From Streptomyces sp. ISL-96 (GTDB lineage Bacteria; Actinomycetota; Actinomycetes; Streptomycetales; Streptomycetaceae), in the NCBI RefSeq assembly GCF_018614035.1, contig NZ_JAGGPA010000013.1:23505-87504 (forward strand): a DNA stretch of 64,000 nucleotides. The letters are read 5' to 3'. Numbering within the stretch: position 1 is the stretch's first letter; every line of letters begins with the position of its first letter. The notes under the pieces were generated by a model, which worked only from the letters and a program-made list of their open reading frames with translations, was not told where the DNA came from and searched no databases. Of the stretch, positions 36,597-41,273 are shown in pieces. Made by a program: the position numbers and the translations under genes.

Positions 36597-37484
36597 CTAT
36601 GCCGCTGTCAGCCAGGCGCCGATGCGGGTGAGGAGTGTCTCCTCGGCCGCGTTCTCGGCGTGACCCATGCCGGGCACGATCCACAGTTCGCTGCGGCCGG
36701 CCGCAGCGGCGAGTGCCCGCGGATGGTCCAGTGGGAAGTACGGGTCGCGGTCGCCGTGCACGACCAGCAGCGGAGTCGGTCCGAGCCTGGCCGCCGCCTC
36801 GACCGGCGAGAGCGGCACCGGGTCCCAGTCCCGGGCGTGGATCCGGGTACGCAGCCCGAAGCGCCCGACGAGGCGCCCGGCGGGCCGGGTGATCACCCAG
36901 TGCACCCGCCGCATCGGCGCCGTACCCCGGTAGTACCAGCGGGCGGGGGCGCTGACCGCCACCACGGCGTCGGCTCGCGCGGACACGTGGCCCGCCGGGT
37001 GCGCTTCCATGCGCCCCCCATGCGGGGAACCGCTTCCGTCCCGGTACAGCGCCGCGTGCCTGACGACCACCGAGCCGCCCATCGAGAAGCCGACGGTGAC
37101 CACCCGCTCGTGTCCCAGCGAGCGTGCCCAGCGGACCGCCGCCGCCACGTCGAGGACCTCCCGGTCGCCGACCGTGGAGCGGCCGCCTGAGCCGCCGTGT
37201 CCACGGAATGAGAACGTGATCACGGCGGCGTACTGCCTGAACACCCGCGCCGCCCGCCGCACCGCGGGCCGGTCCACGGAGCCCGTGAAGCCGTGCGCGA
37301 CGACGATCGCCAGGGAGTTGTCCCCGCCGTCATCGGCCTCCCCGCCGTCATCGCCGCCTTGCGACGGCTCGTACAGCGCCTCGATACGGACCCCGTCGTC
37401 CGCCCGCAAAACCGTGCGCCGGGAGCCGTGCGTGACGGAGGGAACACGCGATCTGCGGACAGGACCCTCCGGTACGGAACTCAT
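36597..37484 (-). CDS. Alpha/beta hydrolase
   Basis: A 295-residue protein of the alpha/beta-hydrolase fold with nucleophile elbow GFSMGGS, acid in HGDRDPYF, and base in PGMGHAE. HGFTGS near the N-terminus is the oxyanion loop. The substrate is unknown. I start it at MSSVPEG; an ATG seven codons earlier is possible, and neither has a strong ribosome-binding site. It ends about 30 bases upstream of the MoaD-like gene and is divergent from glnR. Confidence 0.9.
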   Translation of the reverse strand: MSSVPEGPVRRSRVPSVTHGSRRTVLRADDGVRIEALYEPSQGGDDGGEADDGGDNSLAIVVAHGFTGSVDRPAVRRAARVFRQYAAVITFSFRGHGGSGGRSTVGDREVLDVAAAVRWARSLGHERVVTVGFSMGGSVVVRHAALYRDGSGSPHGGRMEAHPAGHVSARADAVVAVSAPARWYYRGTAPMRRVHWVITRPAGRLVGRFGLRTRIHARDWDPVPLSPVEAAARLGPTPLLVVHGDRDPYFPLDHPRALAAAAGRSELWIVPGMGHAENAAEETLLTRIGAWLTAA

Positions 37485-37506
37485 GTGGGCTATTCTGCTG
37501 GGCATA

Positions 37507-37545
37507 GGACCTGGGCAACGTTGCCCCCGGGTCCTTTTGTGTTTT
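37507..37545 (+). terminator. Intrinsic terminator-like hairpin upstream of glnR
   Basis: GGACCTGGGCAAC pairs with GTTGCCCCCGGGTCC, followed by TTTTGTGTTTT. This is the only classic U-tract terminator in the window, and it points toward glnR. It lies between the divergent hydrolase and glnR genes, where no plus-strand gene ends, so it may be an attenuator in the glnR leader. Confidence 0.7.
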
Positions 37546-37686
37546 CTGACCGTTGTTACGGACAGATGACGCGGTGAGGTCTCAGGGCGCGGGACCGAAC
37601 CGTACGAAAGCAGTGCCGCATACGCCCCCAAGCTCTTAAGGAGCAGGGGGTACCCCCTCCGCAGGGACCGAGGAGGAACCGACGTA

Positions 37687-37740
37687 ATGGGCAAGCGAAA
37701 CGTGCACGACCGGACGACCCGGGCAGGTGGCCGACGATGA
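37687..37740 (+). CDS. Leader small ORF overlapping glnR
   Basis: A 17-codon ORF with a strong ribosome-binding site (GAGGAGGAA, eight bases before its ATG). It encodes a short basic peptide, [17 protein letters not shown]. The stop overlaps the glnR ATG (ATGA), so ribosomes ending here could start glnR. glnR itself has only a weak GGTGG before its start. It could be an artefact of glnR 5' sequence, but the overlap and the strength of the signal favour a coupled leader. Confidence 0.6.
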
Positions 37741-38561
37741 GTTCTCTGCTGCTCCTGACCAATGCCCTCCAGCCGTCGACGGAGGTGCTTCCCGCCCTCG
37801 GCCTGCTTCTGCACAGTGTGCGGGTGGCCCCCGCCGAAGGCCCGGCCCTCGTCGACACCCCAGGTGCCGACGTCATCCTGATCGACGGCCGCCGTGACCT
37901 CCCGCAGGTCAGGTCGCTGTGCCAGCTGCTGCGGTCCACCGGACCCGGCTGTCCGCTGATACTCGTCGTCACGGAGGGCGGCCTCGCGGCCGTCACCGCC
38001 GACTGGGGCATCGACGACGTACTGCTCGACACGGCAGGCCCGGCAGAGGTCGAGGCGCGGCTGCGCCTCGCGACGGGCCGCCAGCAGATCACCTCGGACG
38101 ACAGCCCGATGGAGATCCGCAGCGGCGACCTGTCGGTCGACGAGGCGACGTACAGCGCGAAGCTCAAGGGGCGGGTCCTGGACCTGACCTTCAAGGAGTT
38201 CGAGCTGCTGAAGTATCTGGCGCAGCACCCCGGCCGGGTCTTCACGCGCGCCCAGCTCCTCCAGGAGGTGTGGGGCTACGACTACTTCGGTGGTACGCGG
38301 ACGGTCGATGTGCACGTACGGCGGCTGCGCGCGAAGCTCGGCCCGGAGCACGAGTCGCTCATCGGGACCGTACGCAATGTGGGCTACCGCTTCGTGACTC
38401 CGGAGAAGGTCGAGCGGGCGGCCGCGGCCGAGGAAGCCAGGGCCGCCAAGGCCGCGCAGAAAGCGGTGCCCGCGGCCGTCACCCACACGGCGGACAGGGA
38501 CCCCGACGACTCCGCGGTGCCCCAGCGGGAGGAAGAGGCAGTACGGCCTGCCCAGCGGTAG
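37737..38561 (+). CDS. glnR: Nitrogen-response regulator GlnR
   Basis: Orphan OmpR-type regulator of nitrogen assimilation (glnA, glnII, amtB, nir) and cross-talk with PhoP. The 274-residue protein has a receiver-like N-terminus with Asp50 in VILIDGRRD but without the usual acidic pocket, so it works as a dimer without phosphorylation. It is followed by the winged helix [20 protein letters not shown] and [17 protein letters not shown]. The N-terminus [13 protein letters not shown] is diagnostic. A terminator-like hairpin and a coupled small ORF precede it. Confidence 0.96.
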
Positions 38562-39620: not shown

Positions 39621-41273
39621 CTAAGGACTGAGCGGGAGTGAGTCCTGTTGCCAGGCCTCATGCTCGGCCGAACGCCCCGAACGGTTTTGGGCGTTCTGGT
39701 CCCCCGCGTTCGCTCCGCGTCCGGGCGGCACGGATCGTGTCCGTGGTCCGGGAATGCGGGGGCGGGTTTCCTCACGCCCAAGAGCACGCCGGCTGGCCTG
39801 GACGGTCCGATGCCCACGACGATCGCTCTGGTCGTTGTGGGGCGGTGCCGTCCGTCGCCGGATCGGGTGCCCTTGGGCGCGCCTTCCGATCGCCACGGCG
39901 GCAGCGTCGTGGCGAGTGGTCTTACGGGTGGTGCTGGTGAGGGGCTTCTGCCAGTGCTGCGCGCCCCACTTGCTGGTGTAGGCCGGGTCGACGGCGATGA
40001 TCGCGGTGCCCGTTTGGTCGGCCATGGAGGTCAGGCGGGCGCGGAGTTTGCCGGTGGGCATGCCGGAGATCAGCTGCCGGAAGCGGCGCTTGCGGCCGTG
40101 CTTCTCGCGGGTCTTCTCCGCCGCGAAGTCCAGGTCCTCGACCGCGATCGCGGCAACCCCACAGGTCTTCGCCCAGTTCAGCAGCCGGGACAGGGCGTGG
40201 CGGACCTGCGCGTCGCGGTGCTGGGCGTTGCCGGACAGGTCGTAGAAGAAGCGGCGGGGCCGGCCGATGGGGTTGCCATGGACATCGAGGCGCCAGGCGG
40301 CGAGATGGTCCGCATTGGTATCGACACCGATCACCCCGTGTGCGAGCGCCGCCTCCAGCGGGACCGTGGGCGAGGGCGGGATCTGCCAGGACGCCGTCAG
40401 GTACCAGCGGCCGCGCCGGGTGTCGTGGTGGATGCGGTAGGCGACCGCCCGGTTCGCCTCCATGCGATCAGCCCACTCGGTGCCCCGATGCGCGAACCGC
40501 ACCTTCGCGGCGAGCACGTACCGGCCGTGCGGGGCGTTCGCCAGCCCGGCCAGCGGCACCGGCAGCTTGATCGACACCTGGCCGTCGGGGCTGACACGGA
40601 TCGTCTCGTTGCCATACCGCTTCCCCGACTCACCATCAGCCGACAGAAACCACCGCTCCGCCTCCCACCGCTCCCGCCACTGCGCCTCGGTGAGCTGGGC
40701 ATCGGCGAGATGGTGGCGGGTGTTCAACAGGCCCTTGCCGCCCCGCACCACCCGCACCCGGCCCGCCCGCCAGTCCAGCACAGCGGCAGTACGGCGGGCC
40801 TCCAGAGCGGCCAGCCGCCGCGACTTCGCATGCCACTCCCGCCGCGACCGGTAACCACCCGACGCCCGCTTGCTGCCCCGCTCGCCGATCGGCAGGGACA
40901 GACGGTGCCGAAGCATCCCGATCCCCGCCTCAAGACCCCGGATGTGAGCCGCCTGGCAACGCCGGGCCAACGCCCACTGATCATGCGACGCCTTCGTCAC
41001 CGCACCCGCCCACCGCGACGACGACACCTCCGTCAGCGCCCGCTTGCGCCCCGCCCACGACTCCGCAGAATGCTCCAGACCATCAGCGCAGCGCACCTTG
41101 AGGTCCCGGGAGGCCAGCGCACCCATGTGCGCGCCCACCAACCGCAGCACCTCCACATCCCCGGCGGTCAGCTGCTTCAACCGGTCACGCACAGCGACAC
41201 CAGTAGGCCCCGGAACGACGAACGGCGCAGCCGCCACCCGCAGGCCCGAAACCGACCGCTGCACCGCAACCAA
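39621..41273 (-). CDS. IS605 OrfB/TnpB-type RNA-guided nuclease-like protein
   Basis: A 550-residue TnpB-related protein encoded by an insertion sequence. The RuvC residues are complete: Asp318 in GVDTNADH, Glu379 in VEDLDFA, and Asp456 in RHDAAAVAIG. The zinc-ribbon cysteines of typical TnpB are absent; the segment reads PAYTSKWGAQHWQKPL. The last 80 residues are Arg/Pro-rich, as where a 3' guide RNA overlaps the coding end. The start is a TTG after GGGGG, with an in-frame stop upstream. No IS200 transposase gene (TnpA) is adjacent, so it would need one elsewhere. Confidence 0.85.
   Translation of the reverse strand: MVAVQRSVSGLRVAAAPFVVPGPTGVAVRDRLKQLTAGDVEVLRLVGAHMGALASRDLKVRCADGLEHSAESWAGRKRALTEVSSSRWAGAVTKASHDQWALARRCQAAHIRGLEAGIGMLRHRLSLPIGERGSKRASGGYRSRREWHAKSRRLAALEARRTAAVLDWRAGRVRVVRGGKGLLNTRHHLADAQLTEAQWRERWEAERWFLSADGESGKRYGNETIRVSPDGQVSIKLPVPLAGLANAPHGRYVLAAKVRFAHRGTEWADRMEANRAVAYRIHHDTRRGRWYLTASWQIPPSPTVPLEAALAHGVIGVDTNADHLAAWRLDVHGNPIGRPRRFFYDLSGNAQHRDAQVRHALSRLLNWAKTCGVAAIAVEDLDFAAEKTREKHGRKRRFRQLISGMPTGKLRARLTSMADQTGTAIIAVDPAYTSKWGAQHWQKPLTSTTRKTTRHDAAAVAIGRRAQGHPIRRRTAPPHNDQSDRRGHRTVQASRRALGREETRPRIPGPRTRSVPPGRGANAGDQNAQNRSGRSAEHEAWQQDSLPLSP

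Follow-up and report, generated by a model that had tools for sequence, protein, structure and literature searches.

Short open reading frames (ORFs) coupled to the gene behind them are known from mycobacteria, where, according to the available part of Shell et al. 2015 (PMC4633059), the linkage between the two can outlast the sequence of the small ORF. Engineered modules of similar build are the bicistronic design (BCD) of Mutalik et al. 2013, as described in the available sections of PMC10367133, and the nfORF excerpted from PMC13255528. In overlapping gene pairs that use termination-reinitiation (Huber et al. 2019; PMC6728339, in the portion available), the stop codon overlaps the next start and a Shine-Dalgarno sequence (SD) lies inside the upstream ORF. 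A leader cistron that delivers ribosomes has been proposed as a way of initiating translation in the accessible text of a review (PMC12548453).

In the window, the 64,000-nt stretch of Streptomyces sp. ISL-96 analyzed here, a small leader ORF of 17 codons plus TGA (37687–37740, + strand; ATG at 37687–37689, TGA at 37738–37740) precedes glnR (37737–38561, + strand), which encodes an OmpR-type nitrogen regulator of 274 aa. The small ORF is led by the SD GAGGAGGAA (37670–37678, + strand), whose AGGAGG at 37671–37676 is followed by a 10-nt spacer, and it contains the SD-like AGGTGG of glnR (37725–37730, + strand; 6-nt spacer), assigned from sequence and pairing energy. Its TGA and the glnR ATG (37737–37739) overlap in an ATGA at 37737–37740 (+ strand), as read from the sequence. 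The first-pass annotation had described a 17-codon ORF with a strong SD and a TGA overlapping the glnR ATG, and its coordinates and description proved exact. The best PDB matches of the 37737–38561 product were 8hih, 8hig, 8hml and 4o1i, whose titles say only transcriptional regulatory protein or OmpR-family regulator; we take all four to be GlnR structures and, on these matches, the gene to be glnR. None of the 25 NCBIfam families listed for the product was an equivalog scoring above its cut-off.

As in the ORFs of Shell et al. 2015 (PMC4633059, part available), the TGA of the glnR leader overlaps the RTG start of the gene that follows and, as in an example from that paper, the peptide has changed but the linkage has not. 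Three of the marks of a coupled small ORF in that text are found at glnR, namely a stop/start overlap, 5–50 residues and a linkage conserved without the peptide. The mycobacterial cases are described there for leaderless transcripts, whereas the glnR leader has a strong SD, was traced through 180 unique loci and has relatives lacking the ORF. The anatomy of BCD in the excerpts of PMC10367133 and PMC13255528 recurs as well: a fore-cistron led by a first SD (SD1) encloses a second (SD2), and its stop overlaps, or in BCD may adjoin, the target start. Here SD2 is AGGTGG, not AGGAGG, and the junction is a natural, evolutionarily maintained ATGA instead of the engineered TAATG of PMC10367133. The pairs of Huber et al. 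2019 (PMC6728339, as available) share the overlap and the internal SD, but their upstream ORF is an ordinary gene, not a small leader. Because the ORFs of Shell et al. and the BCD modules, as far as those texts describe them, share its anatomy, the glnR leader joins a known kind; coupled small ORFs and bicistronic designs were known already, and glnR adds a new, well supported case. Among the matches listed from the open-licence PubMed Central literature, we found no description of a small ORF upstream of glnR, and the available part of a review (PMC10704036) does not mention one. The same part reports that glnR transcription start sites were determined in S. coelicolor in 1991 and that glnR transcript levels vary little with nitrogen in that species. 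Ribosome profiling of S. coelicolor (PMC4895711) and transcript ends for seven Streptomyces species (PMC7738537) have been published.

Two architectures among relatives

We compared 290 loci from overlapping sources, 271 of them unique over 120 nt upstream and 300 nt of glnR. They comprised the 80 best hits of a single scan of named genomes (S. coelicolor is not among them), congeneric genomes numbering 149 out of 150 (G050 gave no match), the 30 best scorers from a family-wide search of 394 genomes, 30 genomes from other genera of the family, and the window, whose genome is counted three times (window, L081, L111). The first-pass annotation would have been refuted by a lack of conservation in relatives, which is not what we found. 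The small ORF is kept in 102 of the 149 congeners; it is absent in 46, where glnR has an SD of its own immediately upstream (for 7 of them, with a GAGGAAGG-type SD, the assignment was manual), and L277 is cut by a contig end. Among the best 80 of the named-genome scan, it is present in 56 and absent in 24 (1 by hand). The 30 genomes from other genera yielded 10 small ORFs, 4 possible ones, 1 direct locus and 15 direct loci with a less canonical SD, which is GGAAAGGGGAC in 11 of the 15. All 30 loci from the family-wide search carry the ORF; being the best scorers, they are the nearest relatives. Since the 22 loci from other families (30 search loci minus 8 congeners) gave one weak candidate (L332, GTG start, SD match 5/6), the leader ORF is a feature of the family within the sample compared.

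Some assignments were made by hand. Nine direct loci (L078, L142, L278, L281, L282, L283, L285, L287 and L289) mostly have the GAGGAAGG-type SD. Five ORFs, L021 and L032 with GTG starts and L256, L272 and L288 with imperfect SDs, were added; these are outside the set of 175 loci used for phase and inside the 180 used for spacing, accessibility, pairing and composition. The possible ORFs of other genera (L152, L154, L165, L166) are within the 203 called ORFs and in the count of presence changes, and outside the other tests.

AGGAGG lies 10 nt upstream of glnR in 61 of the 71 direct loci, which is the same site as that of the small-ORF SD. The 24 nt preceding the start of glnR in L007 (direct) are identical to those preceding the small ORF in L009, which is what a start-to-start deletion would leave; we infer that the loci lacking the ORF arose through deletion. 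Presence and absence changed 16 times on the glnR tree, itself weak, on which small-ORF loci are interspersed among direct ones. This scatter may reflect errors in the tree, recombination or loss on several occasions. With both architectures in a single genus, there is a ready-made comparison of how a leader cistron affects expression.

A mobile MIRU-like unit that landed on the start codon of glnR and is harmless while coupled could yield a similar junction, as MIRU insertions at start codons overlap them by 4 nt (PMC12548453, available text). The ORF has no second copy in its own genome, however, the next best matches being one of 20 identical bases and one of 45 bases at 78%, and it occupies the same position in several genera, so that we give this explanation almost no credence. 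An origin from a repeat or MIRU was rejected on the number of copies, several being expected and one being found in the genome of the window.

Frame, stop position and peptide

Small-ORF starts were called by a frame-blind rule, an ATG with a perfect AGGAGG 4–13 nt upstream and at most 200 nt from glnR. All 175 starts found in unique loci share one phase, that of the overlapping TGA. Candidates with a 5/6 SD match also turn up in other phases. The 203 called ORFs, 9 of which were manual or merely possible calls made in knowledge of the phase, are all in phase; 202 end on the overlap and L250 ends one codon earlier. Their length ranges from 15 to 53 codons (17 in the window, 23 in L033 of S. 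albidoflavus; more than 50 in 3 of 203), and the inferred length changes, a minimum on a tree built from the first 660 nt of glnR, are multiples of 3 in 70 of 70 cases. By contrast, the control spacer between an upstream hairpin and the ORF start gave 32 of 124 such changes (165 loci), and the equivalent spacer in 70 direct loci gave 12 of 50. Edge-disjoint pairs differed in ORF length by a multiple of 3 in 51 of 51 comparisons. A single in-frame stop, that of L250, occurs in 4012 codons, compared to 58 and 55 in 3832 codons of each of the other two frames. In one locus (L043, about 1440–1500) the small ORF is enlarged by in-frame tandem 12-nt CCGGGCAGGTAT-like units, and its end is still on the glnR start.

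All 290 loci have a TGA overlapping the start codon of glnR (260 ATG, 26 GTG, 4 TTG). Because loci without the ORF have this TGA too, the overlap alone is no evidence, and it is the frame leading into it that counts. In 426 kb of the window's own genome, the strict arrangement was found at 1 of 241 crudely called genes, namely glnR, and is therefore not common by that measure. Together with the shared phase at 175 of 175 unique loci, this indicates that the arrangement at glnR is not due to chance.

Selection on the encoded peptide would look different. Over codons 2–8 in 179 unique loci we inferred 372 changes, spread evenly over codon positions 1, 2 and 3 (113/130/129); 90.7 (sd 8.3) of them were expected to be synonymous and 77 were. 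Among the 59 loci of the 18-codon class, the 240 changes were distributed 72/96/72 and synonymous ones were below chance (46 against 73.3, sd 7.0); in the last six codons of the ORF, 135 were synonymous and 134.9 expected. The control, glnR codons 2–22, had 495 changes distributed 24/1/470, with 481 of the 495 synonymous and 165 expected. Given the even distribution and the lack of a synonymous excess, the peptide is free of purifying selection; it is the frame and the stop position that are selected. A functional micropeptide co-expressed with GlnR would explain the strict conservation of the frame, yet the 179 loci hold 103 distinct sequences over codons 2–8 and the changes fall evenly over codon positions, which makes that idea barely credible.

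The first-pass annotation had further proposed that coupling would let amino-acid supply or ribosome stalling set GlnR levels; on that reading, the ORF encodes a regulatory leader peptide acting through specific codons. Several features of the 180 unique ORFs could be read that way. Thr, His, Val and Asp exceed their frequencies in shuffles (11.7/7.2, 5.7/2.7, 5.1/2.8 and 5.3/3.5%), the common N-terminus GERTVHD consisting largely of these residues; CGA is a common codon, at 362 of 3832; and the opening 12 nt (ATGGGCGAGCGA) show good conservation. These 12 nt, together with GCAGGTGG, the commonest form of the glnR SD-like site in the 180 loci, read as nucleotide signals, GCAGGTGG being the SD of glnR itself. 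Third-position G+C is 0.71. Against a regulatory peptide, Gln and Glu are not enriched over shuffles (Q 4.0% vs 4.3%, E 6.1% vs 5.6%), TTA is absent from the 180 ORFs, synonymous changes are not in excess, the length varies from 15 to 53 codons, and, with the stop overlapping the start of glnR, there is no sequence between them in which alternative structures could form. Neither an attenuator-type conserved peptide nor a run of regulatory codons was found in the small ORFs. With no purifying selection on the peptide and no enrichment of Gln or Glu, this part of the first-pass annotation found no support, and we consider such a mechanism highly improbable.

Initiation signals and probable coupling to glnR

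Pairing energies were computed with what we take to be the 3′ end of the 16S rRNA. In the window, AGGTGG matches AGGAGG at 5 of 6 positions, and the glnR site pairs at −11.2 kcal/mol, to which a bulged extension contributes, compared to −11.6 for the small ORF. Judged against AGGAGG alone, the glnR SD looks weak (111 of the 180 small-ORF loci have a 5/6 match with a 6-nt spacer). Within small-ORF loci, median pairing was −11.5 kcal/mol at the glnR site and −11.6 at the leader site, the 5% tails of letter shuffles being −12.1 and −11.0; for glnR in direct loci it was −11.6 (tail −10.9), and for the 15 less canonical loci −12.5 (tail −12.3). The first-pass annotation had called the glnR site weak, and the two measures differ on this: the AGGAGG match agrees with it, the median pairing does not. 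The glnR site of small-ORF loci is thus as strong as that of the leader, yet lies within the chance level of its G-rich surroundings, whereas the leader value is beyond its own tail. With kinship ignored, the median unpaired value was 0.34 at the glnR start in small-ORF loci (n = 180), 0.46 at the small-ORF start and 0.45 at the glnR start in direct loci (n = 71), and the small-ORF start was more open than the glnR start in 154 of 180 loci, again with kinship ignored. Folding at the glnR start was not unusual compared to shuffles, either in the window (z +1.74 and +0.54) or across 60 small-ORF loci (mean z +0.58). Leader structure was set aside as an explanation on these folding values. In BCD, translation of the fore-cistron opens structure at the target start; at glnR, the less open start of small-ORF loci would fit this and the ordinary folding would not. 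An Rfam search of the leader returned isrO alone, at 19.8 bits against a cut-off of 42.

These energies bear on an alternative in which the strong SD causes the ORF to be translated, selection just bars ribosomes from entering glnR out of frame, and glnR is initiated from its own SD. The frame could be kept for that purpose, as several out-of-phase candidates would extend far into glnR, and independent initiation at glnR is possible given that its site pairs about as well as that of the leader. However, an ORF of no use would be expected to shed either its SD or its ATG, and the perfect AGGAGG and ATG are retained at 175 unique loci; the same SD precedes glnR where the ORF is absent; and, of the two sites in small-ORF loci, that of the leader exceeds its shuffles and that of glnR does not. 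We regard insulation of this kind as unlikely.

The small ORF is probably a leader cistron supplying glnR with ribosomes through coupled translation, its purpose being translation and not the peptide. That selection acts on the frame and the stop but not on the peptide implies that the ORF is translated and that translation has to terminate at the glnR start; we infer from this that glnR depends on it. Ribosomes would load on the strong SD of the leader, translate 15–53 codons of unimportant sequence and terminate at the TGA overlapping the glnR start. From there glnR would be started by termination-reinitiation, by passing ribosomes holding its start region open, or by both, assisted by the glnR SD inside the leader. 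This reading is supported by the uniform phase, the length changes and pair differences in multiples of 3 and the near absence of in-frame stops, by the unselected peptide, by the shared SD of direct loci and the identity between L009 and L007, and by the lower accessibility of the glnR start in small-ORF loci (kinship ignored). Against it, there is no unusual structure to open, and 46 of 149 congeners lack the ORF. The coupling proposed in the first-pass annotation is accordingly the portion that drew support, a frame and stop kept over 70 inferred length changes pointing to it.

A natural bicistronic leader would thus sit on a global regulator, and the evolutionary evidence that frame and stop position alone count is unusually clean. 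In ORF-bearing species, glnR constructs starting at the annotated ATG would drop part of the translation signal. More tentatively, and with considerable doubt, GlnR output may track the general capacity for initiation, termination and reinitiation and not any amino acid, in which case lineages without the leader would have uncoupled nitrogen control from that signal; ribosome recycling, initiation factors and antibiotics such as kasugamycin are equally speculative candidates for what sets this capacity.

Upstream element and neighboring genes

About 200 nt before glnR, a TATTCT box (37491–37496) is followed by a terminator-like hairpin (37506–37534) and a T-rich tail (whole element 37491–37546, + strand), with no + strand gene seen directly upstream. 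A hairpin of this kind lies upstream of glnR in 262 of 271 unique loci, including those without the small ORF, and TATNNT precedes it in 256 of the 262; a perfect copy of its tail motif occurs once in the genome. A promoter and terminator scan of 37300–37900 found none, the simple scan not listing the hairpin at 37506–37534, and no Rfam family fitted the element. It could be an attenuator or a short RNA located where the glnR transcript begins. A divergent gene on the − strand, starting near 37484 and a putative alpha/beta hydrolase by the impression of its translation, has its likely ATG about 20 nt from the hairpin, so that the shared region may carry promoters for both. Further downstream, a 550-codon ORF (39621–41273, − strand) is, by the same kind of impression, a putative TnpB/IS605 OrfB-type protein.
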